In this document: positions 677 through 38,007 of the stretch, in pieces
Layout: each line of letters opens with the position of its first letter
Position numbering within the stretch: the first letter of the stretch is position 1
Assembly: GCA_018660685.1 (NCBI GenBank)
Contig: JABJJW010000005.1
Location: 1 to 44,056 of the forward strand
Direction: 5' to 3'
Length of the DNA: 44,056 nucleotides
Source of the DNA: Flavobacteriales bacterium
GTDB lineage: Bacteria > Bacteroidota > Bacteroidia > Flavobacteriales_G > Salibacteraceae
The notes under the pieces: generated by a model
Told to the model about the DNA's origin: nothing
What the model saw: the letters and a program-made list of their open reading frames with translations, nothing else
Database searches by the model: none
Position numbers and translations under genes: made by a program

Positions 677-1945
677 ATGCTAGCATCAAATAATCCAAGA
701 AGAAAATCATGGCTGGATATTCCGGAAGGAAGTGATTTTCCAATTCAGAATCTGCCATTCGGAATTTTATCTCGCGATGGTGGTCCGAAAAAAGTTGGAG
801 TTGCCATTGGAGAATATGCCCTTGATGTTTCGGCCCTCTATGACTTTGGTTACCTCGATTTAAATCTCTACTCACACGAAACATTCGAGAATGACTGCCT
901 GAATGATCTGATCAATCTGGGCAAAGAGGCAAATCGAGCCTTACGAGAGCGCATCTCCTATTTGCTGAGTGATGAAACATTTGAGCTAAAGAATGACACG
1001 AAGCGAGATCTATTTCTAATCAAGCAATCAGCACTGGACATGCATATGCCGATCAAGGTTGGGGATTACACCGATTTCTATTCGAGCATAGAACACGCGA
1101 CCAATGTAGGAACCATGTTCCGAGATCCAGACAATGCACTCTTGCCGAATTGGAAGCACATACCTGTAGGATATCACGGTCGTTCATCCTCCATCATCCT
1201 CAGCGGTGAGAGTATTCACCGTCCGAAGGGTCAAACGAAACCCGATGACTCGGACAGACCAGTTTTTGGTCCTTGCAGGCTTTTAGATTTCGAGTTAGAA
1301 ATGGCCTTCATCACTCATCCAGGTAAAGCACTAGGCGGTAGCATCTCTACCTCAGAAGCTGAAGATTACATTTTCGGAATGTGCGTATTCAATGACTGGA
1401 GCGCTCGAGACATTCAGAAATGGGAATACGTTCCTCTAGGACCATTCCTCGCAAAGAATTTTGCCTCTTCAATTTCGCCTTGGATCGTAACAATGGATGC
1501 GTTAGAACCATTCAAAGTTCAAGGCCCTTCACAAGAACCAGCAGTTCTTCCATATCTCGAGTATGAAGGCGAGAAAAATTATGACATTGACCTGAGAGTA
1601 TATATCGAGCCTGAGGGTGAAAAGGAAAGTCTCGTCAGTCATTCCAACTACAAATACATGTATTGGAATATGGCTCAGCAACTGGCACACCATACAGTCA
1701 ACGGGTGCAATGTTCGTGGAGGCGACATGATGGGTTCTGGTACGATCAGTGGCCCAGATAGAAGTAGTTATGGCTCAATGCTCGAATTGAGTTGGAAAGG
1801 AACGCAACCCGTTCAACTCGAAAATGGTGGTGAACGCAAATTCATCCAAGACAATGACACGGTCACGATGAGAGCGGCTTGCGAAAAGGAAGGAGTCAGA
1901 ATCGGATTCGGTGAAGTGACCACGAAAGTTCTCCCTGCTATTTAA
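677..1945 (+). CDS. fahA: Fumarylacetoacetase
   Basis: Last enzyme of tyrosine and phenylalanine degradation; it hydrolyses 4-fumarylacetoacetate to fumarate and acetoacetate. The protein is 422 residues, the usual length. Residues match the mammalian enzyme with a constant offset of +7: D133 (metal), catalytic H140 (SSIEHATN), metal ligands E206 and E208 (DFELEMAF), D240 (FNDWSARD), lysine near 260 (FLAKNF) and the late GTISGP block. I chose the ATG at 677 because the N-terminal SDFPIQNLPFG then starts near where family members begin. The TTG at 665 would overlap glyA and adds only four residues. No other tyrosine-degradation genes are present here. Confidence 0.95.
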   Translation: MLASNNPRRKSWLDIPEGSDFPIQNLPFGILSRDGGPKKVGVAIGEYALDVSALYDFGYLDLNLYSHETFENDCLNDLINLGKEANRALRERISYLLSDETFELKNDTKRDLFLIKQSALDMHMPIKVGDYTDFYSSIEHATNVGTMFRDPDNALLPNWKHIPVGYHGRSSSIILSGESIHRPKGQTKPDDSDRPVFGPCRLLDFELEMAFITHPGKALGGSISTSEAEDYIFGMCVFNDWSARDIQKWEYVPLGPFLAKNFASSISPWIVTMDALEPFKVQGPSQEPAVLPYLEYEGEKNYDIDLRVYIEPEGEKESLVSHSNYKYMYWNMAQQLAHHTVNGCNVRGGDMMGSGTISGPDRSSYGSMLELSWKGTQPVQLENGGERKFIQDNDTVTMRAACEKEGVRIGFGEVTTKVLPAI

Positions 1946-1977
1946 CCTTCTGAGACCCACATTCCGTCAGAGCTTCC

Positions 1978-1985
1978 TAACTTAG
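1978..1985 (+). promoter_or_regulatory. Weak -7 element for spoT (TAACTTAG)
   Basis: TAACTTAG differs by one base from the Bacteroidota -7 consensus TAnnTTTG. It ends 7 bases before the spoT ATG, the same spacing as the perfect elements before fur and hisS. No -33 TTG is visible at the expected distance. It would give an almost leaderless transcript. Confidence 0.35.
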
Positions 1986-1992
1986 TAGTAGA

Positions 1993-4221
1993 ATGACCGA
2001 GACGGAAATAGCTAACGAGCGCAGAGCGATTGCGAGAGAATACCGCGCTTTGCTCAAGAATTCCATTCGCGTCACTAATGAGGCTGATAAACTTTTGATC
2101 AGAAAGGCTTTTGATCTGGCGGTCGAAGCTCATTCCGAAACACGTCGAAAGTCAGGCGAAGCCTACATCTTTCACCCTATTGCGGTGGCCAGAATCGTTT
2201 CAGAAGAAATAGGACTCGGAACAACTTCCATTGTATGTGCCTTGCTTCATGACGTTGTTGAAGACACCGAGATTACCCTTGAAGACATTGAAGGACTTTT
2301 TGGAGATCGAGTGGCACTGATTATTGACGGCTTAACCAAAATCACCGGAGCAACGTTTACAGAAGATGTCTCGATGCAGGCGGAGAATTTTCGGAAAATG
2401 CTTTTGACTCTTTCGGAAGATGTCAGGGTCATCTTGATAAAGCTCGCAGATAGATTGCACAATATGCGGACGCTGGATTCAATGAGTCGTAACAAACAGC
2501 AAAAAATAGCTTCCGAAACGCTCTTTTTATATGCTCCTCTTTCGCATAGATTAGGATTGTACAACATCAAATCGGAATTAGAGGACTTGTGCTTGAAATA
2601 CAAGGAAGTAGAGTTGTACCAAAAGATAGAGCAATCTTTAAAGAAGAGTCAAGCGGTCAGAACAAGATTCATCAATCGATTTGTTGTGCCGATCAAACGG
2701 ACCTTGGAAGAAGCTGGGCTTGGCTTCGAAATCAAATCAAGGACGAAGTCGATCTATTCGATTTACAACAAGATGCTCAAGAAGGATATTCCTTTTGAAG
2801 AGGTCTATGATCTATTTGCGGTGAGAATTATTCTCAACTCTAGAGAAGATGAGGAAAAATCAGAATGCTGGAAAGCATATAGTGTTGTAACTGACCACTA
2901 CAAGCCAAATCCAGACCGCCTGCGAGATTGGATTTCCACACCAAAATCAAATGGCTACGAATCGCTCCACACGACCGTCATGAGCCCAACTGGCAAATGG
3001 GTTGAAGTTCAGATTCGCACGAACCGCATGGATGAAATAGCGGAAATGGGTTATGCAGCTCATTGGAAATACAAAGAATCTGCTAGTGAAAATGCATTGG
3101 ACGAATGGATCAAGAAAATTAGGGATACACTTCAAAACCCTGATCCGAGTGCCTTTGATTTCATCGACGACTTTAAACTGAATCTCTTTTCTGACGAGAT
3201 TTTTCTTTTCACGCCGACGGGTGACCTGAAGACATTGCCTAATACAGCCACTGCCCTTGACTTTGCCTTTGAAATTCACACGCAGGTCGGTGCGAAGTGC
3301 ATGGGAGTAAAAGTGAATCACAAACTCGTCCCACTTAGCTATCGACTGAGAAGCGGAGATCAAGTTGAAATTCTCACCTCTCCTAAACAGAAGCCGAAAG
3401 AAGATTGGCTTCGTTTTGTAGTTACTGCTAAGGCTAAATCGAATATTAAAAGTCTTTTAAAAGAAGAAAAGAAGAAGATCGCAGAAGACGGGAAAGAAAT
3501 TTTCACACGAAAGTTACGCTCGCTTAAAATTGATGGAAATGAGGCTAATATTCGAAAAATTCAACAATTTTTCAAATTCCCATCATCTCTCGAAATGTAC
3601 TACCAGCTCGGGCTAGGCAAACTCGACTTGAATAAACTCAAGGACCTAAAGAAAGAAAAAGGTCAACTTAAATACCGCGGAGTTCGACGAAAGAAAAGCG
3701 CCAAAGTGGGCGAGATAGTCACCAAAGTGAACAGTGGAGCGGATCTTCTAATAGGTGATAGCATGGAGAACCTTGAGTATAAGCTCTCACAATGCTGTAA
3801 TCCAATTCCCGGTGACAATGTGTTTGGATTCATTACCGTGAGTGACGGCATTAAAATTCATCGTGAAAACTGTCCGAACGCTATTCAATTGATGAGCAAC
3901 TACGCATATCGAATTGTAAAAGCCAAATGGACCAATGCTGATTCGATTGCCTTTTTAGCTGGAATTAAGATTAACGGAATTGACCAAATGGGATTGGTGA
4001 GTGACGTCACACGCGTGATATCCAGCGAGTACAACGTGAATATGCGCAGTATTAATTTTGATACGGATGATGGCATATTCAAGGGAGAAATCAAAGTTTA
4101 CGTTAATGACACCACCCATTTAACAGAATTAATGAGGAAGCTCCGAAATATTAATGGAGTGACTACCGTTAGCCGGATCAAAGGAGACCAGTTAGAACCT
4201 TCTCTAACAGACTCGAATTGA
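1993..4221 (+). CDS. spoT: Bifunctional (p)ppGpp synthetase/hydrolase, RelA/SpoT family
   Basis: Makes and degrades the stringent-response alarmone (p)ppGpp. The 742-residue protein has the full long-RSH layout. The N-terminal HD hydrolase has H61 (IFHPIAVA), H86-D87 (ALLHDVVED) and LADRLHNMRT near 150. The synthetase domain follows (about 230-400), with RTKSIYSIYNKM, TPKSNGYESLHT and VEVQIRT..AEMGYAAHWKYK. Then come a TGS domain (about 405-465, VFTPxG-type start at FLFTPTGD), a cysteine-containing conserved region (LSQCCNPIPGD) and a C-terminal ACT domain (about 660-735). The intact HD residues favour a bifunctional or hydrolase-active enzyme rather than a RelA-type synthetase. It precedes fur and purA, a gene order I recall as recurrent in Bacteroidota. 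Rel would be an equally fair symbol. Confidence 0.95.
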   Translation: MTETEIANERRAIAREYRALLKNSIRVTNEADKLLIRKAFDLAVEAHSETRRKSGEAYIFHPIAVARIVSEEIGLGTTSIVCALLHDVVEDTEITLEDIEGLFGDRVALIIDGLTKITGATFTEDVSMQAENFRKMLLTLSEDVRVILIKLADRLHNMRTLDSMSRNKQQKIASETLFLYAPLSHRLGLYNIKSELEDLCLKYKEVELYQKIEQSLKKSQAVRTRFINRFVVPIKRTLEEAGLGFEIKSRTKSIYSIYNKMLKKDIPFEEVYDLFAVRIILNSREDEEKSECWKAYSVVTDHYKPNPDRLRDWISTPKSNGYESLHTTVMSPTGKWVEVQIRTNRMDEIAEMGYAAHWKYKESASENALDEWIKKIRDTLQNPDPSAFDFIDDFKLNLFSDEIFLFTPTGDLKTLPNTATALDFAFEIHTQVGAKCMGVKVNHKLVPLSYRLRSGDQVEILTSPKQKPKEDWLRFVVTAKAKSNIKSLLKEEKKKIAEDGKEIFTRKLRSLKIDGNEANIRKIQQFFKFPSSLEMYYQLGLGKLDLNKLKDLKKEKGQLKYRGVRRKKSAKVGEIVTKVNSGADLLIGDSMENLEYKLSQCCNPIPGDNVFGFITVSDGIKIHRENCPNAIQLMSNYAYRIVKAKWTNADSIAFLAGIKINGIDQMGLVSDVTRVISSEYNVNMRSINFDTDDGIFKGEIKVYVNDTTHLTELMRKLRNINGVTTVSRIKGDQLEPSLTDSN

Positions 4222-8940: not shown

Positions 8941-10305
8941 TTACCCAGAACCAGTTTTGTCCATTTCCTCTGTCCAGTTTCCTCGATCAGCTTGGGCAAA
9001 TTGCCAAGGAGCTCCGTTGTTCTCGACATTCGTAAACATGGTATTGAGTTCATTCGGTGCGGCAGATTCTTCCATGACCAAGAACCTTCGCAGATCCACG
9101 ATTATCGAAAGTGGGTTGATATTAACTGGACACGCTTGGACGCATGCATTACACGTAGTACATGCCCAAAGCTCCTCCGGGCTGATGTAATCACCCAAAA
9201 GACTTTTGGCGTCCTCGTCACCTGACTTTAGATTTTTCCCGTGTTCTTCTAAACGATCCCTCGTATCCATCATGATTTTACGAGGAGAAAGGAGCTTTCC
9301 TGTTTGGTTCGCTGGACATTCGGACGTGCATCTTCCACATTCTGTGCAACTATATGAATCCATCAACTGCTTCCATGAAAGATCATTTACATCTTTTGCT
9401 CCGAATCGCTGTGGAACAGCATCCGCATCAGGTGCAGAAGCTGCAAAGGGATCTTGGTTCGGATCCATCATCAACTCAACCTCTTTCTTCACAGCCTCCA
9501 GATTACCGACCTCTCCTATTGGCTCCAACCTAGAGTAATACGTATTTGGAAACGCAAGAAATATGTGGAGGTGTTTCGAATATGGAATATAGATCAGAAA
9601 ACCAAAGACGCCGACGATGTGAATCCACCAGCACGCCCTTTCAATCATGTATAACGTCTCTACATTGCTCGGAAGCATATTGGCGATGATTCCACTTATC
9701 CAGAAGAAATCTGTAAACGCAATGTTCGTATATTGGTTATGTCCCGCGGCAATTACCGCCGCATCTTCCAAACTAAAAAGTACGCTATCCGCTGCATTCA
9801 TCGTCAAGAGTACAATCATCAGAATTGACTCTACGATTAGGATGATGTTTGCATCAGACTTAGGCCATGACGTCATTTCCTTTCCGCTGAATCGCTGGAT
9901 TCTACCTATGTTTCTTCTGATGAGAAATGCAACACATGCAAAGAGAACTAGGAATGCGAGAATTTCAAAAAAGCCAATGAGTGTATGATATAGTGAAGAA
10001 CCCAATAGAGGGTAAAAGACTCGATGAGTTCCAAAGGCTCCATCAATGAAAATCTCGAGCATTTCAAGATTGATCAGGACAAAACCGGCATAAATGAAGA
10101 TGTGCATGATCCCAGCAAATGGCCTGACGGTCATCTTGCTCTGGCCGAGGGCCACACGAGCCATCGTTTTCCATCTCCGAGATTTGTTGTCGCTGAGGTC
10201 TAAGTCTCGACCAAGATTGATGTTGGATCTAATTTCTCGAATCCGCCTGATGAAAAGGAATGAAGTTATCCCAAGCAGAATGATAAATACGATGTTGGAT
10301 ATCAT
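8941..10305 (-). CDS. Membrane-bound (Fe-S)-binding protein, HdrE/HdrC-like fusion
   Basis: A 454-residue integral membrane protein. The N-terminal half has about five hydrophobic helices (near residues 3-20, 65-85, 105-130, 150-170 and 225-245), several with histidines that could hold haem b (HIFIYAG, YHTLIGFF, WWIHIVGVFGF). The C-terminal half is a ferredoxin-type domain with two [4Fe-4S] motifs, CTECGRCTSECPAN and CTTCNACVQACPVNINP. This is the HdrE-HdrC arrangement, and the CCG protein downstream would be the HdrB-like subunit. The likely role is electron transfer between a soluble donor (for example ETF) and the quinone pool; this is inference from family. The start overlaps the MCE gene by four bases (ATGA). 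Confidence 0.88.
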   Translation of the reverse strand: MISNIVFIILLGITSFLFIRRIREIRSNINLGRDLDLSDNKSRRWKTMARVALGQSKMTVRPFAGIMHIFIYAGFVLINLEMLEIFIDGAFGTHRVFYPLLGSSLYHTLIGFFEILAFLVLFACVAFLIRRNIGRIQRFSGKEMTSWPKSDANIILIVESILMIVLLTMNAADSVLFSLEDAAVIAAGHNQYTNIAFTDFFWISGIIANMLPSNVETLYMIERACWWIHIVGVFGFLIYIPYSKHLHIFLAFPNTYYSRLEPIGEVGNLEAVKKEVELMMDPNQDPFAASAPDADAVPQRFGAKDVNDLSWKQLMDSYSCTECGRCTSECPANQTGKLLSPRKIMMDTRDRLEEHGKNLKSGDEDAKSLLGDYISPEELWACTTCNACVQACPVNINPLSIIVDLRRFLVMEESAAPNELNTMFTNVENNGAPWQFAQADRGNWTEEMDKTGSG

Positions 10306-11303
10306 TGATCTGAATTATCGTCATCCCGCGCCTTTTTCTTAAGTTTTTCTTCCGATTTCTCCTTCTTTCCAAAAACAGAGAAATGGACGTAGCGGCTTGG
10401 GTTTACCCGAAGGTCTTCAGCAAGTTTATCAATTTCAAGCGAAGCCTGTTCTAAATTGTTGTAGAGTTTGTCGTCGTTGATGAGTAGACCTAACGAACCT
10501 TCGCCATCATTGATCTTTGTAATGAGCAGGTCGAGCTGATTCAGTGCACTACTCGCATTTTCTATTGCTGACGCATAATTTGCCCTCGTCAGTGAATCAC
10601 TGATTGTCGCAACGTTGTCTATGATCGTATTGATTTGCTTACTCTTCGAACGGATATTAGAAGCGATGGCATCGATGTCGGTTAAAACCTTGGTGAGGTT
10701 CTCATTCTGCTCCTGAACCATGATGTCAACATCTTTGGTTGTCTTGTTGATCACCTCCATGCTGGTCTGAGCCTTCTTGACCGACTCGTTAGTCGTCTCA
10801 ATCATAATCTGGGTCTTCGCGATCAGATCTCGTGCCTCGATGATGACCAGTTCAATTTCTCTTTGAATAGGCGCCAGTTTTTCCTCAACCACACCTACAA
10901 CATCTTTTTTGAGTTCTGGAATCAACGTGTCGCCTGACACGTGAAAGGAACCCAATTCAGAGAGTTCCAATTCAATTCCCTTTGTTCCTAGCAAGTCAAG
11001 ACTGGCAATAATTGCTTTTGAACTGTCCGGAATTTTCAGATCATTTTGAATGATCTCCATCTTCACAAGAATCTTGTTCCCGTCATCAGGAAGAAGTTTG
11101 ATGTTGGCAACCCTTCCTACCTTTACTCCATTCAAAACAACCTCATTGTCATTTTGAAGTTGAGCGACGTTCTTGTAAACAGCATAGAAATATCTAGATT
11201 CCGAAAAGACATTTGACCCTTTCAGATAGCTCATCCCAAAGTAGAGTAACCCAATGGCAATAAGGGCGACAAGGCCAACCTTTATTTCGTTTCTAACTTT
11301 CAA
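10302..11303 (-). CDS. MCE/MlaD-domain protein
   Basis: A 333-residue envelope protein anchored by one N-terminal helix (VGLVALIAIGLLYFGMSYL). An MCE domain follows (about residues 35-115, VYKNVAQLQNDNEVVLNGVKVGRVANI), then a long helical tail with coiled-coil character (about 130-300). MCE proteins form hexameric tunnels that carry phospholipids between the inner and outer membranes (MlaD and relatives). The start is the TTG at 11303: it overlaps the amidase stop codon (TTGA) and puts the usual short basic start, KVRNEIKVG, at the N-terminus. No MlaE/MlaF partner genes are in the window. Overlap with genes on both sides implies one transcript with the amidase and Fe-S genes. Confidence 0.9.
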   Translation of the reverse strand: MKVRNEIKVGLVALIAIGLLYFGMSYLKGSNVFSESRYFYAVYKNVAQLQNDNEVVLNGVKVGRVANIKLLPDDGNKILVKMEIIQNDLKIPDSSKAIIASLDLLGTKGIELELSELGSFHVSGDTLIPELKKDVVGVVEEKLAPIQREIELVIIEARDLIAKTQIMIETTNESVKKAQTSMEVINKTTKDVDIMVQEQNENLTKVLTDIDAIASNIRSKSKQINTIIDNVATISDSLTRANYASAIENASSALNQLDLLITKINDGEGSLGLLINDDKLYNNLEQASLEIDKLAEDLRVNPSRYVHFSVFGKKEKSEEKLKKKARDDDNSDQ

Positions 11304-12556
11304 TTGATCTTTTCACTGTTTAGGGCTCTCGACATTTCAAGTGCTTTTGCAATTGAGATACGCTCCCCTCTATAAAATGCCGTAATAAAGGCTTTTGGAA
11401 AGGCCTTTTCCCGCACGGTTCTTTGCAAAGAAACGGCTTTTTTGTAATCGGTTACTTCCCCAACAGTGTACTTCTTGAGGCCATCAACATCGTATCTTTT
11501 CACCCCTTCGAGCCCATTAAAATTGCCGGGTGTCAACTCAATTTCATTTCCGGATGCCATCAATTGAATTCGATACGTCACAGGATCGCTTTTTGCGACA
11601 GCTGCGGCGGCCTTTTCTTCCCCTTTTTGAGGCTTCTCTTGTTCATTGTGGATAATCGCAGTCGGTACAGGTTCATCAGACACGTCCGGAATCTCCGACT
11701 CAAAGTCCGGAGTACTAATTTCAACTCCTTCTACTCCTGCCTTGTATTGCTTGAAGGCCCGATAAATCGCCGACGCCATGTAGATCTTACCGTTGTCGCT
11801 GTTCAGGAAATCTTCTTCGCCCTTATTGGTCAAAAATCCTAGCTCGGTCAAAACACTTGGCATCGTTGTAAAACTGATTACCCAATAAGGTGCTTGTTTG
11901 ACTCCCCTGTCTCTTCGACTTACGCGCTCACGATACTGATCCTGCATATGTGCACTCAAGACAAGACTTTGATCTAAGTACACAGATTGAGCGATCGATC
12001 GTGCTATAAGGCTCTCCGGCTCCTTTGGATCAAAGCCTTCATAAGTCTGCTCATAATTATCCTCTAATAAGATTACCGAATTTTCTCGCTTTGCCAATTC
12101 TAAGTTAGCCGAGATTTTCGTCATGCTCATGACAAAAGTCTCCGTTCCGAAGGCTTCTTTATTTGCGGCGGAATTGCAATGGATAGAAACGAACAAATCT
12201 GCCTGTGCTTTATTTGCGATGGTCGTTCTGTCCTTGAGTTTCACAAACTTATCTTCCTTTCTTGTGTAGATGACATCGACGTTTTCAAAAGCTCGGCCAA
12301 TGTAATCTCCAACTTGAAGCGCAACTTCCAGAGAGATGTCCTTTTCGGTTGATTTGTACCTACCTGTTCCTAAGTTTCCAGGATCGTGGCCTCCATGCCC
12401 TGCATCCAACACGACTTTCAGCACTCCCAGCTCAGCGAGTTTCGGACCCCGATGATTCGGCACGAACGATGTAAATCCATACATAAACGCAATCCCCAAC
12501 AGAGTTGCGATGAGTCTGGACTTTGATATTCTATTGATAAAATTGATCAATATCAT
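11300..12556 (-). CDS. N-acetylmuramoyl-L-alanine amidase (Amidase_3)
   Basis: Zinc enzyme that removes stem peptides from peptidoglycan, needed for cell separation. The 418-residue protein has an N-terminal signal or anchor helix (about 14-30). In the Amidase_3 domain the zinc ligands are H54 (DAGHGGHDPG), E71 (TEKDISLE) and H126 (VSIHCNSA), and the catalytic glutamate is E237 (LTELGFLTN). A low-complexity linker (about 270-330) leads to a C-terminal SPOR-like domain (about 333-412, YRIQLMASG). SPOR domains bind denuded septal glycan, so a division role is likely. It is the first gene of the minus-strand run; its promoter element lies at 12586-12593. It is an AmiA/AmiB/AmiC-type protein without an enterobacterial-style AMIN domain. 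Confidence 0.93.
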   Translation of the reverse strand: MILINFINRISKSRLIATLLGIAFMYGFTSFVPNHRGPKLAELGVLKVVLDAGHGGHDPGNLGTGRYKSTEKDISLEVALQVGDYIGRAFENVDVIYTRKEDKFVKLKDRTTIANKAQADLFVSIHCNSAANKEAFGTETFVMSMTKISANLELAKRENSVILLEDNYEQTYEGFDPKEPESLIARSIAQSVYLDQSLVLSAHMQDQYRERVSRRDRGVKQAPYWVISFTTMPSVLTELGFLTNKGEEDFLNSDNGKIYMASAIYRAFKQYKAGVEGVEISTPDFESEIPDVSDEPVPTAIIHNEQEKPQKGEEKAAAAVAKSDPVTYRIQLMASGNEIELTPGNFNGLEGVKRYDVDGLKKYTVGEVTDYKKAVSLQRTVREKAFPKAFITAFYRGERISIAKALEMSRALNSEKIN

Positions 12557-16823: not shown

Positions 16824-18494
16824 ATGAATACAATTACCAGACTGGGATTACTACTGTTCATCAGTTTCACTGCAACATCTTGCGCTACGCTCATCAGTGG
16901 CACCAAACAAAGTGTATTAATATCATCCAACATTCCTGATGCACGCATCAGCGTTGATGACGAACAAGCATTGGTAGGAAGTGGAACTATGAAACTCAAA
17001 AGGAAAGATGAACATAGAATATTAGTTGAACAAGAAGGAATCGAACTGGAGGAATTCGTCGTTAAGAAGAAGAGCAACCCTGTTTTGTGGTTGAATTCAA
17101 TTTTAGCCGTGCCCGCTTTGGTTGGTGGTATATACTTGGCCTCACAGAAGGAAACAGTGACCTATGGCTCAGGATCATGGGCCTACACCGCGGAAGAGCC
17201 AAAGGAGCCTGAATTCGTAATCGGTCTTGTCTTGGCAAGTACATGCTACCTAGCTCCTCTAATCCCCATGGGAATTGATGCCGCATTTGGAGCTGGATCC
17301 CGTTTTGACAAAGAAGTGAAACTGAATTTGACCGCACTTCCGAAGAAAGTGACTCCGGACGAATCATTAAACCTCTCCGTCAGCGATGTCAATGTCAAAC
17401 TTCAATCTGGAACCAAACTCGGTTCAATTCACAGCCTAAATGGGACGGAGCTATCAGATCTTCTTTGGGAGAGCACGGTCAATGTCTCATTTGAAGACTT
17501 AATCATCAATACGAACAATGATTTGAACTCTTTTGGTTTCAATGTTTCGGGATTAAGGAACGTTGAAGAACGCATGGTCCCAGGTGGTAAGGAGTCCTAT
17601 TTGATTGAAGCTGAAATCAAAGAAATTAAGTACGACATCCATGTTGTGGGTCGCGCGGCATACGAATCAAAAACAGCATTGAGTATTACTTGGAGAGTGG
17701 TAAATCCAAAAAACAAGGATGTAGCTTTCTTTCTAAACGTAGAAAGCACCGGTTTTTCGCAAACGAATGGTGGTGCGCTTCCTGTGTACGAAGCGCTCAG
17801 ACATTCGCTTTATAAATTGATTGAGAATGAAGAGTTCAGGGACTTGGTTACGAATAGTAAACCTATCAAGACTGAACCTGCAGTTGCCGGTGAAGCTATC
17901 TCCATTACCAATAACACCTCACGCGGTGACGCCTACGCTGATGTAAGTGAATTGGCCAAGGCATGCAAATCATCCGTCGTCACAATCACGAACCCATCAG
18001 GTCACGGAAGTGGATTCTTCATTAGTTCTGATGGCCTCCTTTTGACCAATGCACACGTAGTGGAAGGATACGATAGACTGCTTGTGAGACTTGGAAACGG
18101 AATTGACTTTGAACCAGAAGTTATTTCAATCGATTCCGACAACGATCTAGCCCTTTTAAAAGTTCCAGGCAGCGGATACAGTCCTCTTTCCTTTGCTAAG
18201 GAATCAGTACTACTAGGAGAAAAAATCGTCGTTATTGGCACTCCTGCAGAAGAAAGCCTCTCTCAATCGGTCACTGCAGGCATTGTATCCGGAGAACGAT
18301 TGATTGAAGGCAAAAAGATGATTCAGAGCGACGCCGGAATCAGCCCAGGAAACAGCGGCGGTCCGATGCTCAACATGAAGGGAGAAATTATTGGCGTCGT
18401 CACGTCCAAAATTGTTGCTTCCGGAGTAGAAGGAGTCGGGTTCGCCATTCCAAGCGCGGTCGTGATAGATAAACTAGACATCGTACTAGATTAA
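16824..18494 (+). CDS. Lipoprotein-anchored trypsin-like serine protease (HtrA-type, no PDZ)
   Basis: A 556-residue fusion. Residues 1-20 are a lipoprotein signal (ATSC lipobox, Cys20), followed by ATLISGTKQS and a PEGA-like surface segment, with two hydrophobic stretches at about 89-105 and 135-150. A middle domain of unknown family spans about 185-340. The C-terminal third (about 375-556) is a trypsin-like protease of the HtrA/DegP type with a complete triad: H411 (TNAHVVEG), D441 (SDNDLALLKV) and S511 (SPGNSGGPM). It ends right after the protease fold, so the PDZ domains of DegP are missing. The predicted location is the periplasmic face of a membrane. It is followed by DUF423 after 17 bases. 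The substrate and the role of the N-terminal half are unknown. Confidence 0.85.
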   Translation: MNTITRLGLLLFISFTATSCATLISGTKQSVLISSNIPDARISVDDEQALVGSGTMKLKRKDEHRILVEQEGIELEEFVVKKKSNPVLWLNSILAVPALVGGIYLASQKETVTYGSGSWAYTAEEPKEPEFVIGLVLASTCYLAPLIPMGIDAAFGAGSRFDKEVKLNLTALPKKVTPDESLNLSVSDVNVKLQSGTKLGSIHSLNGTELSDLLWESTVNVSFEDLIINTNNDLNSFGFNVSGLRNVEERMVPGGKESYLIEAEIKEIKYDIHVVGRAAYESKTALSITWRVVNPKNKDVAFFLNVESTGFSQTNGGALPVYEALRHSLYKLIENEEFRDLVTNSKPIKTEPAVAGEAISITNNTSRGDAYADVSELAKACKSSVVTITNPSGHGSGFFISSDGLLLTNAHVVEGYDRLLVRLGNGIDFEPEVISIDSDNDLALLKVPGSGYSPLSFAKESVLLGEKIVVIGTPAEESLSQSVTAGIVSGERLIEGKKMIQSDAGISPGNSGGPMLNMKGEIIGVVTSKIVASGVEGVGFAIPSAVVIDKLDIVLD

Positions 18495-18511
18495 GTTATA
18501 ATTCCTGAGGT

Positions 18512-18919
18512 ATGAAAGCTAAACCCTACCACCTACTCTTCGGATCATTCTTTGCCTTGACGGCAATCCTCCTTGGAGCTTTTGGTGCGCACGGTCTTAA
18601 GGAGTTCTTAAGTCCTGAGCAACTTGATTCTTTTGAAACAGGAGTGCGCTATCAGATGTACCACGCCCTGGTCTTAGTAATGATCTCACTTAAAGGGCAT
18701 TCTTTCCATTTGAGGTATGAGAAAATGATCACTTCCATGTTCGGTGCAGGCGTAATTCTTTTCTCCTTTAGCATATACCTACTCAGCCTCCAGGACCTTT
18801 GGGGAATTAATCTAAAGTGGCTTGGACCGGCCACGCCCTTGGGAGGAAGTCTACTTATAATAGGATGGGCGCTAATTTTTGTGGATGCCGTCCAACTTAT
18901 CACCACTAAAAAACGTTGA
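18512..18919 (+). CDS. DUF423 family membrane protein
   Basis: A 135-residue inner-membrane protein with about four helices. The family signature is clear: FGSFFALTAILLGAFGAHGLKEFLSPEQLDSFETGVRYQMYHALVLV at residues 10-56, as in E. coli YgdD and many small DUF423 proteins, plus GPATPLGGSLLIIGWALIF near the end. The biochemical function is unknown. It starts 17 bases after the protease gene and is followed by 110 bases before pckA. It may share a transcript with the protease; nothing suggests that the two functions are linked. Confidence 0.9.
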   Translation: MKAKPYHLLFGSFFALTAILLGAFGAHGLKEFLSPEQLDSFETGVRYQMYHALVLVMISLKGHSFHLRYEKMITSMFGAGVILFSFSIYLLSLQDLWGINLKWLGPATPLGGSLLIIGWALIFVDAVQLITTKKR

Positions 18920-18969
18920 CTGTGTATAAAATTTAGCGCTTCAAACTGGGTGTTCGATAAATCTATTGC

Positions 18970-18977
18970 AACCTTTG
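18970..18977 (+). promoter_or_regulatory. Weak -7 element AACCTTTG before pckA
   Basis: AACCTTTG matches TAnnTTTG in five of six defined positions and is followed by CAC, like other promoters here. It lies 52 bases before the preferred ATG of pckA and 13 before the alternative TTG. The evidence is limited to position and similarity. Confidence 0.3.
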
Positions 18978-19029
18978 CACTTCGAATTTCTTGAACGTTA
19001 AACTAAAGTCAAGAATAAACGCAACTCGT

Positions 19030-20646
19030 ATGAATGAATTTGGCAGAAAACCAGGAAATGCTTCAGTATCCGATTTTGGACTAAGTGGAGTTAGGAATGC
19101 CTATTGGAATTTAGAACCAGGCGAACTTGTTGAAGACACCATCCTTAATAACCAAGGAGCAATTGCTAGTTCTGGCGCCCTCGCTATAGACACCGGTGAG
19201 TTCACCGGCCGCTCTCCGAAAGACAAGTTGATTGTAAGAGATGCTCAAACAGAAGATACCGTCTGGTGGGACGGTGGGTTTAACATCCCTTTTTCACCCG
19301 ATAAAGTTGAGCCTTTGCTCAACCGTATGACGGCGTATCTCCAGAACAAAGATGTTTACGTACGAGACTGTGTAGCTTGTTCTGATCCGGAATACAAGCT
19401 TAACATTCGGGTGATTACCGAATATCCGTGGAGCAATCTATTTGCGTACAACATGTTCATCCGTCCCAATACAGAGGAGCAAGAGAGCTTTGACAACGAC
19501 TGGACCATCCTTTGTGTTCCCGGCTTTATGGCTGATCCTGAAATTGATGGAACACGCCAACACAACTTTTCAATCCTTGATTTCACCAGAAAAATCGCCC
19601 TGATCGGTGGTTCTGGATACACCGGAGAAATCAAAAAAGGAATTTTTACCGTCCTGAATTACGTCCTTCCTCAAGATAGAGGAGTGCTGAGCATGCACTG
19701 TTCAGCCAACATTGGTAAAAATGATGATACAGCAGTCTTCTTTGGCTTGTCAGGAACAGGAAAGACAACATTATCCGCTGATCCAAATCGTCAACTTATC
19801 GGAGACGATGAGCACGGTTGGACAGAGACTGGAGTTTTCAACTTCGAAGGTGGATGTTATGCAAAGTGCATCGACCTTACTCAGGAAAAGGAGCCGCAAA
19901 TCTGGGATGCAATCAAATTTGGAGCTCTTCTCGAAAACATTGACTTCAAACCTGATTCCACGGAAGTAGATTTTGAAGGATGTACGAAAACCGAAAATAC
20001 TCGGGTTAGCTATCCACTGCATCACATCGACAATGCAATGGATCCATCAATTGGCGGAATTCCTAAAAATATTTTCTTCTTGACCGCAGATGCTTTTGGA
20101 GTTCTTCCTCCATTATCTAAATTGACTCCCGGTCAGGCCATGTACCACTTCATCTCAGGTTATACAGCTAAAGTTGCTGGAACCGAAGCGGGCGTTACTG
20201 AGCCGCAAACCACATTCTCAGCTTGCTTTGGCGCACCGTTCTTGCCTCTTCATCCTACCAAGTATGCTGAAATGCTTGGAGAGAAAATGAAGCAACACAA
20301 CGTCAACATCTGGTTAGTGAATACCGGATGGAGCGGAGGAGAATATGGAGTAGGTGAAAGAATCAAGCTTAAGTATACTCGAGCAATGATCACAGCTGCT
20401 CTGGAAGGAAAACTCGACAACGTGGATTACAAGACTCATGAAGTCTTTGGATTGGAAATGCCAACAGAATGTCCTGACGTTCCGACAGACATTCTTGATC
20501 CAAAAAATACATGGGAAAACAAGGATGGCTACGATAAGAAAGCCAGTCATCTCGCCGAGGAATTCGTGAAAAACTTCACTGAGTTTTCAGATTTCGCTAA
20601 CGAAGAAATCATGGCTGCAGCGCCAAGAGTTTCAGTTGGAGTATAA
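19030..20646 (+). CDS. pckA: Phosphoenolpyruvate carboxykinase (ATP)
   Basis: Converts oxaloacetate and ATP to phosphoenolpyruvate, the entry to gluconeogenesis. With the ATG at 19030 the protein has 538 residues, the normal length for the ATP-dependent class. Signatures: TGEFTGRSPKDK (substrate), MHCSANIGKNDDTAVFFGLSGTGKTTLS with the P-loop lysine near 245, LIGDDEHGW (metal) and TGWSGGEYGVGERIKLKYTRAMI. A TTG at 18991 would add 13 residues (MNVKLKSRINATR) not expected for this family, so the ATG is preferred. A strong hairpin terminator follows at 20666. Together with amino-acid degradation genes nearby it fits growth on peptides or organic acids. Confidence 0.96.
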   Translation: MNEFGRKPGNASVSDFGLSGVRNAYWNLEPGELVEDTILNNQGAIASSGALAIDTGEFTGRSPKDKLIVRDAQTEDTVWWDGGFNIPFSPDKVEPLLNRMTAYLQNKDVYVRDCVACSDPEYKLNIRVITEYPWSNLFAYNMFIRPNTEEQESFDNDWTILCVPGFMADPEIDGTRQHNFSILDFTRKIALIGGSGYTGEIKKGIFTVLNYVLPQDRGVLSMHCSANIGKNDDTAVFFGLSGTGKTTLSADPNRQLIGDDEHGWTETGVFNFEGGCYAKCIDLTQEKEPQIWDAIKFGALLENIDFKPDSTEVDFEGCTKTENTRVSYPLHHIDNAMDPSIGGIPKNIFFLTADAFGVLPPLSKLTPGQAMYHFISGYTAKVAGTEAGVTEPQTTFSACFGAPFLPLHPTKYAEMLGEKMKQHNVNIWLVNTGWSGGEYGVGERIKLKYTRAMITAALEGKLDNVDYKTHEVFGLEMPTECPDVPTDILDPKNTWENKDGYDKKASHLAEEFVKNFTEFSDFANEEIMAAAPRVSVGV

Positions 20647-34105: not shown

Positions 34106-35491
34106 CTAAAATCTGAAGTAAATAAACGGCTGTGAATCGGCAAGGGCGATTTGACCAAGACAAAGGACAAGAAGCATTAGTGCGCCAATTGACTTCACGA
34201 TAACCAATGACTTTCTATCGCTTCTCATGAAACGTTCGAGGTAGTCGTGCATTGGACGCGGCACGAATGAAAATGAAACAGCGATGATGAGCATCCACCA
34301 CTTTCGATCCTTTGGAAAGAAGTCCAGATGTGCATCCCATCGAAATAAGTGTTCAAAATAGTCGAGCGCATGTGTAAGATCATCGGCTCTGAACCACACC
34401 CATCCAAGCATGACGAGGATGAATGTCAATCCAGTGGATGGTCCACCAGGAAGCTTCTCAAAGATTTTCGTGTGGCGACCTATGGTAAGAAGTAAGCCAT
34501 GCCAAGCACCCCATATCACAAAGTTCCAACTCGCGCCATGCCACAGCCCTGAAAGAAGAAAGACGATCCACAAATTTCTCATCGTCAGAGCTGCTGAAAA
34601 TTTATTTCCCCCAAGTGGGACATAGAGATAGTCTCTCATCCATGTGCTCAGTGTGATATGCCATCGAGACCAAAATTCCTTGAATCCCTTTGCAACGTAT
34701 GGCCATCGAAAGTTTTCAGGGAATTCAAAGCCCATCATGCGTCCTAGACCAATGGCCATATCACTATAGCCAGCAAAGTCAAAATAAATCTGGAAGGTGT
34801 AGGCGATGAGGCCAATCAGTGCTGTCATCGAGCCAATATCACCTCCGGCGAATGCCTTGTCAGCAATTGTAGCAAGCTGATCGGCGACCAGAATCTTTTT
34901 CGCTAAACCCAGACAAAACAATTGCAACCCTGTTAATCTTCGGTTCCAATTGTCTGTATCAAATCGATTCGATAATTGATGGTCAATGTCCTTAAATCGG
35001 ATGATCGGACCCGCAATGAGCTGTGGAAAGAGAAAAACAAAAAGTAAGTATTGGGAGAGTGATTGAGCAGGCTCAGCATCCTTCCGATAAACATCGACCA
35101 AATAGCTAATCTTCTGAAAAGTGAAGAATGATATTCCCAATGGAAGTGCAATGTCTGCGTAGTGCGGATAGTTGAACCCAACTCCTTCAACGATGGCGCG
35201 GGCGTTGTCCGTGAAGAAGTTGAAGTACTTAAATATGAACAGAGTCAGAACGTTCAGAGCAAGCCCAAGTATCAAAGCCCGTCTGTCGTGCAAAGCAATT
35301 TGACGACTCAAATAGAAATCGATGGATCCACTTGCGACCAGAACCAAAGCAAATACTGGAGCACCCCAAGTATAAAACACCAAGCTACCAGCCAGCGCGA
35401 CGTAGTTCTTAAATCGGATAGGAACCGCATAGTATGCTACCAGAAATAACGGGAGGAAATAAGTCAGAAAAAGGGCGCTACTGAATAACAC
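34106..35491 (-). CDS. MBOAT family O-acyltransferase (AlgI-like)
   Basis: A 461-residue polytopic inner-membrane acyltransferase with about ten hydrophobic helices. The family core is clear: PLGISFFTFQKISYLVD (118-134), QLIAGPIIRFKDI, FDFAGYSDMAIGLGRMMGFEFPENFRWPY, and the catalytic region with H278 (SRWHITLSTWMRDYLYVPLGG) and H318 (LSGLWHGASWNFVIWG). In AlgI and PatA/DltB relatives these transfer acetyl or D-alanyl groups to exported glycans. No AlgJ/AlgX-type SGNH partner is next to it, so the substrate is unknown. The start is GTG at 35491, with the weak element TACATTCG at 35496-35503 just upstream, the same octamer as before the saccharopine dehydrogenase. Confidence 0.9.
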   Translation of the reverse strand: MLFSSALFLTYFLPLFLVAYYAVPIRFKNYVALAGSLVFYTWGAPVFALVLVASGSIDFYLSRQIALHDRRALILGLALNVLTLFIFKYFNFFTDNARAIVEGVGFNYPHYADIALPLGISFFTFQKISYLVDVYRKDAEPAQSLSQYLLFVFLFPQLIAGPIIRFKDIDHQLSNRFDTDNWNRRLTGLQLFCLGLAKKILVADQLATIADKAFAGGDIGSMTALIGLIAYTFQIYFDFAGYSDMAIGLGRMMGFEFPENFRWPYVAKGFKEFWSRWHITLSTWMRDYLYVPLGGNKFSAALTMRNLWIVFLLSGLWHGASWNFVIWGAWHGLLLTIGRHTKIFEKLPGGPSTGLTFILVMLGWVWFRADDLTHALDYFEHLFRWDAHLDFFPKDRKWWMLIIAVSFSFVPRPMHDYLERFMRSDRKSLVIVKSIGALMLLVLCLGQIALADSQPFIYFRF

Positions 35492-35515: not shown

Positions 35516-36163
35516 TTAGTCAAGCCCATTGTTGACTGCCCATCTCACCAAGCCGGCAACATTCGTGACACCAACCTTTTTAAAAATATTGGATCGGTGA
35601 CTCTCGATTGTATGGGCGCTGAGGTGGACTGCCTCTGCGATTTGCTTCGTGTTGTATTCATGGCACAAAAGCTTGATGATTTCCTTTTCTCGATCACTTA
35701 AGTGAGGGAAAAGATGATCCGGCTCCTCAGCAGTTCTCAATCCTTCTGCCTTGGCCTCTGCTTCTTGAGTAAGACAGACATGACCATTCTTTACGGAAGA
35801 GATGGCCTTGAGAATTTCGTGTTTGCCCGCTGACTTTAGGATGTAGCCATCCGCGCCGTACTTGAGCATCTGCTTTACAAATCGTTGTTCATCATACTGC
35901 GTGAGGGCAAGCACTTTGATATCGGGGTGCTTATCTTTCAGTACCTAGAGGCATTCAATGCCATCCATGACCGGCATATTGATGTCCAGAAATATGACGT
36001 CGACCTCGTTGTTGGCAACGAAGTCGAGGCATTCCGCTCCATTTGCCGCCTCTCCACATACTTCGAGACTCTCGATGCTCTTTAAGGCATTGCTCAATCC
36101 CTCTCGAAAAATCTCATGATCATCACAGAGTAGCGTTCTTAATCTATGTGACTCTTGCTTCAT
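35516..36163 (-). pseudogene. LuxR-type response regulator interrupted by an in-frame amber codon
   Basis: The two halves lie in one frame and form a normal 215-codon NarL/FixJ-type regulator. The receiver domain has the acidic pair D14-D15 and phospho-acceptor D60 (VIFLDINMPVMDG). A single TAG at codon 73 (35945-35947) follows GIECL and is followed at once by VLKDKHPDIKVLALTQYDEQ, so the fold simply continues. The C-terminal part keeps the receiver lysine (ILKSAGKHE) and a full LuxR helix-turn-helix (LSDREKEIIKLLCHEYNTKQIAEAVHLSAHTIESHRSNIFKK). TAG differs from the lysine codon AAG or glutamine CAG by one base. Its ATG overlaps the upstream kinase stop by four bases. It may be a recent nonsense mutation or a sequence error; a truncated, HTH-only product restarting at a downstream codon is conceivable. 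Confidence 0.85.
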
Positions 36164-38007
36164 ACAGCCTCAGTTTGATTAAGAGGAACAGAAATTATGA
36201 AATGGACTCCTTGTCCTTGGACTGAAGACACGGTCATGGCTCCTTCTAGAAAGTTAACTCGACTTTTGATTCCGCTCAGTCCAAAGTTTTCCGGATCCTC
36301 TACTATGGTTGCATCGAAACCCATTCCATCGTCTTTATAATTCATTTGGAGACCATCTGGAGTTCGCTTTATCATTAATTTTATTTCAGATGCACTGGCA
36401 TGTTTCAAGGTATTGTTGACCAGCTCTTGGACGATTCTATAGATCATCACTTCTGTCTTATTTTCAAATCGGTCTTCGAAATCGTCATATGTGAAGGATA
36501 TCTTAATCTTAGCCGACTCTCGCATACGATCAAAGAAGTCCTCTATTCCTTCGAAAAGACCAAGTTTCACAAGAACCCCTGGCATCATATTATGGGCGAC
36601 TCTCCGCACTTCAGAATTGGCTCGATCTATCACCTCTTCGGTAGATTTCAAGATGTCCAATTCTGTCAATTTTTTGATCTCAGATTCAATGTTGTTGATG
36701 TGCAATTTGACTGCACTAAGCAAGGCACCGATGCCATCATGCAAATCTCGAGCGATTCTTCGCCTTTCTTCTTCCTGAGCGTATAACATGCTTTGAAGAT
36801 TCATAACCTCACGCTCTTGTTCCAGTTTGGCGATTCGTTCCTCACTGAGCATTTTGTTATGCCGTAGGCGATTCGAGTAAATGATTATCACGGCGGTTGA
36901 AATTGCCAAGAATAGAAAAGTCAATACGATAAAGAAGTTGCGTTGCAAGTCAGATATGTGGTTGGCTTGTTCAAGCCTTACGATGGATGCCTCCTTCTTC
37001 TCAGTTTCGTAGAGGGTTTGGAAATTATTGATTGCCGTAACCTTCGCTTCATCAATAAGAACTGAGTGGATTGAATCATGTTTACTGATATAGTTGAGTG
37101 CTAATTCAGTATTCCCGGTTGCCAAGGCAACGGAATAGGTTCTATAGTAGATTGTTTCCAGTGCCGACGGGGAATCAAAACAATTCTGATGAGATTCAGC
37201 TTCTTCCAATGCAATGAGCGCCTCACCATAATGCTCATTCATTTCAAGTATCTCACCCTTTAAACTTAAAAATGTCGCACTTTCAAAACATCCTGATCCA
37301 ATGTACATTTCAGCACTATCAAGAAACAAAAGAGAAGACGCTCTTTTCTCAGGTAAAAAGCAAGAGTACAACGCTACTTTTCGAAACAATAGACCCAGTT
37401 GGCCACTATCAGCATTTTGATTTCTACTCATCCTGAGCGCTTCGTAAGCGGTTTGCAAAGCAACTTTAACACTATCCAACTTCCAATAAACTTGGGCGAG
37501 GGCGTCCAAAGTCATAATTAGGTTTGGCACATCATCGAAGTCTCTTGTTGTCGAAACCAGATTCTTTCCGATTCTGAGTGCCTCCGTCGGATCGTCGAGT
37601 TGAGTTGCATACAAATTCATGAGATTGTACTCCGCTGAATTAAACCGATTCAGACCGTGTTCTGAATACCCTGCAGAAGCTTTCAAGAAGTATAAAGCGG
37701 ATGAGTCAGCAATTCCAATATTTCGATAAAGCAAACCAAGCAAATTGTGCAGCTTAGCCTTCAACAGCAACTGATCATTTGTACTTGGTAGATTTACACG
37801 AGAGCGAGCGGGCAAAATATACTTCGCAGGTGAATCATATCGACCCTTAAAACCCAGATTTATCAGCTCTTCAGTGGCCTCCTGTGTTTGGTCAAGTCTG
37901 AGTCTGATCAAGGTTGAGTCAGCTTCGGTTCCGGCGAAAACAGTCAATCCGATCCAAAACTGTAAGAGCACATGAAAACCTCGTTTGGAAAATCTACTTT
38001 TCAGCAT
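36160..38007 (-). CDS. Sensor histidine kinase with TPR-like sensor (NarX/LytS-type HisKA_3)
   Basis: A 615-residue kinase. It has a signal peptide or N-terminal helix (FHVLLQFWIGLTVFAGT). A periplasmic region of TPR-like helical repeats (about 35-330) includes LLKAKLHNLLGLLYRNIGIADSSALYFLKAS and LNYISKHDSIHSV. One transmembrane helix lies at about 355-375 (FFIVLTFLFLAISTAVIIIYS), then a coiled coil, and a HisKA_3 phospho-acceptor H423 in RRRIARDLHDGIGALLSAVK. The ATPase domain contains VQELVNNTLKHASAS (N box), DDGMGFD and NFGLSGIKSRVNFLEGAM. All motifs are intact. It overlaps the response regulator gene by four bases, so they are a cognate pair. The sensed signal is unknown; such TPR-sensor kinases are common in Bacteroidota. 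Confidence 0.92.
   Translation of the reverse strand: MLKSRFSKRGFHVLLQFWIGLTVFAGTEADSTLIRLRLDQTQEATEELINLGFKGRYDSPAKYILPARSRVNLPSTNDQLLLKAKLHNLLGLLYRNIGIADSSALYFLKASAGYSEHGLNRFNSAEYNLMNLYATQLDDPTEALRIGKNLVSTTRDFDDVPNLIMTLDALAQVYWKLDSVKVALQTAYEALRMSRNQNADSGQLGLLFRKVALYSCFLPEKRASSLLFLDSAEMYIGSGCFESATFLSLKGEILEMNEHYGEALIALEEAESHQNCFDSPSALETIYYRTYSVALATGNTELALNYISKHDSIHSVLIDEAKVTAINNFQTLYETEKKEASIVRLEQANHISDLQRNFFIVLTFLFLAISTAVIIIYSNRLRHNKMLSEERIAKLEQEREVMNLQSMLYAQEEERRRIARDLHDGIGALLSAVKLHINNIESEIKKLTELDILKSTEEVIDRANSEVRRVAHNMMPGVLVKLGLFEGIEDFFDRMRESAKIKISFTYDDFEDRFENKTEVMIYRIVQELVNNTLKHASASEIKLMIKRTPDGLQMNYKDDGMGFDATIVEDPENFGLSGIKSRVNFLEGAMTVSSVQGQGVHFIISVPLNQTEAV

Follow-up and report, generated by a model that had tools for sequence, protein, structure and literature searches.

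Is a response regulator gene that carries a single in-frame stop codon beside an intact sensor kinase dead, wrongly sequenced, or still used in some way? The question is raised by a gene on the minus strand of the window (the whole stretch of 44,056 nucleotides that was analysed), for which the original prediction had reported a TAG at codon 73 of an otherwise continuous NarL-type regulator. The coordinates, the strand and the frame proved to be as claimed. Translation gave 216 steps; two of them are stops, an internal one at residue 73 and the one that ends the gene, so that the regulator, with position 73 counted, has 215 residues. When the internal stop was read as X, Pfam matched Response_reg (1.4e-27) and GerE (5.7e-15) in one protein, which bears out the claim that both flanks of the TAG belong in a single frame to a regulator with D60 and a LuxR helix-turn-helix. 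The receiver with Asp60 and the C-terminal GerE helix-turn-helix of this class of regulator are therefore present, and the uninterrupted frame is lacking. D14, D15, D60, T88 and K110, which we take to be the conserved receiver residues, are all present, and the regulator showed no further lesion. The open reading frame downstream of the TAG still matches GerE when searched alone (2.2e-15). Just 4 of 20,000 base shuffles left the 142 codons past the TAG open, thus the length of this open stretch is unlikely to be due to chance.

The adjoining gene had been described as an intact TPR-sensor kinase. Its frame is open throughout and its HisKA_3 and HATPase_c domains exceed the Pfam cut-offs, so the description as an intact kinase stands; the TPR match, with 24.7 bits, stays under the cut-off of 30.1. 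This kinase is the sole HisKA_3 match found in the genome. The overlap of its stop codon with the start codon of the regulator may couple the translation of the two genes. Other full-length NarL-like matches were found in the genome at C10:24096 and C20:7468, despite the lone HisKA_3 kinase. The features of the locus and the other broken genes of the genome are given in Table 1.

Table 1. Features of the interrupted regulator locus and of other broken genes in the same genome (positions in the window unless a contig or locus is named)
Feature	Position	Strand	Basis
NarL/FixJ-type response regulator gene with one in-frame stop	35516..36163	-	single frame; Response_reg and GerE, stop read as X
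In-frame TAG, codon 73	35945..35947	-	sense codon in the copies of the five closest genomes (G002, G029, G019, G023, G015)
Receiver domain, residues 11-121, with the TAG inside	35801..36133	-	Pfam; receiver scan of the genome (same place, 1 TAG)
Asp60, presumed phosphoacceptor	35984..35986	-	translation and alignment
LuxR/GerE-type helix-turn-helix, residues 155-209	35537..35701	-	Pfam
132-aa open reading frame past the TAG; first start-like codon GTG (codon 84), first ATG codon 99	35516..35914	-	ORF list; use of either start putative
Intact sensor kinase, 615 aa, HisKA_3 and HATPase_c, weak TPR match	36160..38007	-	ORF list, Pfam
ATGA shared by the kinase stop and the regulator start	36160..36163	-	sequence
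MBOAT-type membrane acyltransferase adjoining the pair	34106..35491	-	named by eye; NCBIfam DltB match under cut-off; same neighbour in G002
LytTR response regulator; TAA directly behind the phosphoacceptor motif, frameshift upstream of the LytTR domain (1.3e-23)	C22:379176; L065 (C22:377500-380500) about 1265-2042	-	Pfam, translation
Single-receiver protein, frameshift near the middle, both halves matching Response_reg	C20:225543; L066 (C20:224500-227000) 996-1387	+	domain search
Histidine kinase with one TAA that separates HisKA from HATPase_c	C4:95321; L171 (C4:93500-97500) 1819-3066	-	domain search
Secreted-looking protein, two open stretches parted by one TAG, second half with a below-cut-off T9SS sorting-tail match	L182 (C17:90001-110000) 9091-11499	+	
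Acidic Asp-rich repeat protein, one in-frame TAA, strong coding signal on both sides	L191 (C28:60001-80000) 17917-19998	+	

Relatives of the regulator were sought in a family set of 35 genomes (this one and 34 others) and in a genus set of 13 genomes. Close relatives occur in four other genomes of the family, with 51-63% identity; none of the four has an internal stop, and the premature stop thus stands, as in a pseudogene, where the four closest orthologues are open. A more distant copy is found in G015. The residue aligned to codon 73 is Lys in G002 and G029 (codon AAG) and in G019 and G015 (AAA), and Gln in G023 (CAA), which makes the proposed AAG or CAG precursor plausible. The original prediction had held that such a codon in relatives would reduce the case to a sequencing or assembly error. 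A sense codon is indeed there in the other species; it indicates which state is ancestral, without showing that an error was made. In all five genomes a kinase match adjoins the regulator, that of G029 ending at a contig edge. A scan of the contigs of the named genomes gave distant homologues only, with at most 42% identity among the best 80, and near records may be absent from that collection. Together with the gene content, these homologues point to Bacteroidota as the lineage.

The closest regulator is that of the sister species G002, where the gene order is conserved. The common order (names assigned by eye) is YafY-like, dnaA, phosphatase, rsmI-like, TPR protein, kinase, regulator, MBOAT, ABC-F and hisS. 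Identity to G002 is 90-94% for ABC-F and DnaA, 59-65% for the TPR protein, MBOAT, rsmI-like, phosphatase, YafY-like and HisS (93 residues in reach), and 53% for the C-terminal part of the kinase. Since the regulator itself falls in the 59-65% group, it is conserved about like its ordinary neighbours. Within the genus set, a clear kinase orthologue is present only in G002 (8.6e-101; next best 1.3e-44).

We compared the changes specific to this lineage with those specific to the lineage of G002. For the regulator the counts were 16:10, 21:8, 17:11 and 16:10 with four outgroups, which are not independent of each other; the excess gave p 0.024 with one outgroup and 0.33-0.35 with the other three. 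Past the stop, the counts were 16:6, 13:6, 9:7 and 10:8, no fewer than those of G002. For the kinase they were 33:36, 22:19 and 21:19 with three outgroups, a balanced result that gives no sign of acceleration. These counts are consistent with a young lesion after which constraint has relaxed slightly at most; they do not prove it.

We consider it probable that the regulator was once functional and was killed by a recent nonsense mutation. The very recent loss that the original prediction had listed among its options is the best supported of them, because the lesion is single, the key residues are kept, a sister species has an intact orthologue, the kinase is not accelerated, and other two-component genes of the genome are broken. 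The species would have inherited a functional kinase-regulator pair, and a single base substitution would recently have converted codon 73 of the regulator to TAG. Translation would then stop after 72 residues, within the receiver and before the helix-turn-helix; no complete regulator would be made, and the pathway would be left open-circuited with its kinase still intact. This account builds on our inference that the base is right, the mutation recent and the truncated product inactive. This genome of 2.6 Mb may perhaps be losing two-component genes more widely, with the regulator as one case among them. The kept key residues and the lone lesion are also what is expected of an isolated base error or of a partly read gene.

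The main rival to recent loss, which we regard as unlikely, is that the gene is truly intact and that the TAG is a wrong base in the draft assembly or a base of a minority strain in the consensus. A lone lesion with everything else preserved would agree with this, and the genome is a draft of 28 contigs. Against it, internal stops were found in none of the 30 ABC_tran rows and none of the 11 GTP_EFTU rows of the same genome, and 36 of the 37 genes of the window are free of them; the best 11 of 17 Glycos_transf_2 rows also have none. The lesions that were found hit regulators, a kinase and two proteins that do not look like housekeeping ones, and the LytTR regulator carries two of them, as real decay predicts. 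One further receiver among the 22 receiver rows, at C20:23619, is short at its N-terminus. A stop flagged in an own kinase at C27:79955 (TGA) appears to be the natural gene end.

The rate of such interruptions was also estimated in a 400-kb sample with a home-made coding-potential heuristic applied to 20 stretches and the window. This flagged 31 of 115 adjacent pairs; 26 were judged by eye, and the other five lie inside the window and include the present regulator. Two clear single-stop interruptions were recognised by eye (TAG in L182, TAA in L191), both in long, non-signalling genes, together with two remnants (L174). Decay is therefore not confined to signalling. Such interruptions by single stops occur at a low rate, and infrequent base errors would give a similar picture. 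Broken rows numbered 4 among 43 for signalling genes (the codon-73 regulator, the LytTR regulator, the kinase with a TAA and the receiver with a frameshift) and 0 among 52 for the controls, which gives a one-sided Fisher p of 0.039, or of 0.089 if three are taken as broken. Those 43 are domain matches, namely 21 receiver genes (merged from the 22 receiver rows) and 22 HATPase_c rows; judged by open-frame length they appear to include non-signalling ATPases, and at least one of them, a hybrid protein, enters the count twice. The contrast is modest, and suggestive rather than strong.

Similar interruptions were seen in sister species. Among the matches listed, those inspected affect a kinase in each of G004 (TAA and TAG), G007 (TAG) and G003 (TAG) and a regulator in G012 (TAG and TAA) (L165-L168); further stops appear in the rows of G001 C268, G010 C2 and G011 C18. 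The regulator next to the TAG kinase of G003 reads as frameshifted in its helix-turn-helix. Two flagged stops were set aside: a TAA in the G003 kinase row appears to be the end of the gene, the TAG being a separate one upstream of the matched stretch, and a TAG at G010 C7:85497 also appears to be a natural gene end. Translational GTPase domains are split or carry stops in G010 (C18 and C26), G011 (C16 and C34) and G003 (C5), which suggests base-level assembly errors there. Some of the interruptions in sister species may therefore be assembly noise. That assemblies within the genus can hold such errors also lends something to the wrong-base explanation.

According to another explanation, translation begins anew at an internal start past the TAG and yields a separate DNA-binding protein that works independently of phosphorylation. 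Isolated LuxR-type helix-turn-helix domains of the NarL family are able to bind DNA, and here this domain is intact and preceded by start-like codons at 84 and 99. Inspection by eye showed no evident ribosome-binding sequence at either of them, a sequence that is often absent in Bacteroidota. Met99 is no adaptation, because the intact orthologues also have it as part of the protein, and the lineage counts past the stop do not suggest that this part has been held more strictly here than in G002. Almost nothing is in favour of the fragment that had been proposed, and we regard its existence as very improbable.

Equally little credence, in our view, is due to the explanation that readthrough of the TAG is frequent enough for some full-length regulator to be made, at a low level. 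In its favour, both flanks are conserved. In PMC7918605, in-frame stops in bacterial genes are described as widespread, as tending to be short-lived and as lying in genes with dN/dS below 1, and many are argued to be tolerated through frequent readthrough. Nothing in the codon-73 case marks it out for readthrough of this kind. The present genome has an intact RF1 (360 aa, above the NCBIfam prfA cut-off) and also RF2. TAG terminates 7 of the 37 genes of the window, dnaA and ligA among them, and it does the same for 25 of the 113 high-scoring coding segments whose stop could be read in the 400-kb sample and the window. Neither loss of RF1 nor avoidance of TAG as a terminator was thus observed. 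The search for a suppressor tRNA that had been recommended found no CTA or TTA anticodon among 34 tRNA matches, in a genome tRNA scan and an ARAGORN reading of 33 loci (29 of L031-L060, with L054 left out as covered by L048, and L061-L064) that contain all 34 matches. The scan scored 150 of 190 first-look candidates, so that a weak tRNA could have slipped by; tRNA-Ile(GAT) and tRNA-Ala(TGC) were likewise not found by it, and the set may be incomplete (genome completeness 96%). A suppressor tRNA or a recoding of TAG, sought within these limits, is thus unsupported. Indirectly, these observations indicate that the codon is recognised as a stop, as it should be in a pseudogene, and TAG looks like an ordinary stop in this organism. 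In addition, two-component genes here and in the sister species are interrupted in some cases by TAA and in others by TAG, and not by one codon only.

That the genus keeps several two-component genes (this regulator, an own kinase, sister kinases) with a single TAG or TAA as low-output or split genes, and lets occasional readthrough or free DNA-binding fragments tune its signalling, seems very improbable.

If the recent nonsense mutation is real, the locus gives a snapshot of a signalling pathway that has just been broken, with the kinase still whole and several two-component genes of the genome broken. It would help to order the steps by which regulatory genes are lost in small genomes, and would involve no new mechanism.

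With the NarL/FixJ regulators that are cognate to HisKA_3 kinases, the gene shares a receiver and a GerE helix-turn-helix in one frame, the key residues and a kinase directly upstream; it differs from them in the TAG that interrupts the frame within the receiver. Like bacterial nonsense pseudogenes, it has one stop in frame, relatives with intact copies and, in its genome, further broken genes of its class; it departs from them in having a single lesion only, and constraint has not clearly been lost so far. As in the proposed readthrough cases of PMC7918605, whose example is also a TAG, the stop lies inside conserved coding sequence; unlike those cases, the stop at codon 73 is known from one genome only. 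Taken together, the case gives the impression of a function lost recently in an ordinary way, or possibly of one wrong base, rather than of a new reading of the genetic code.
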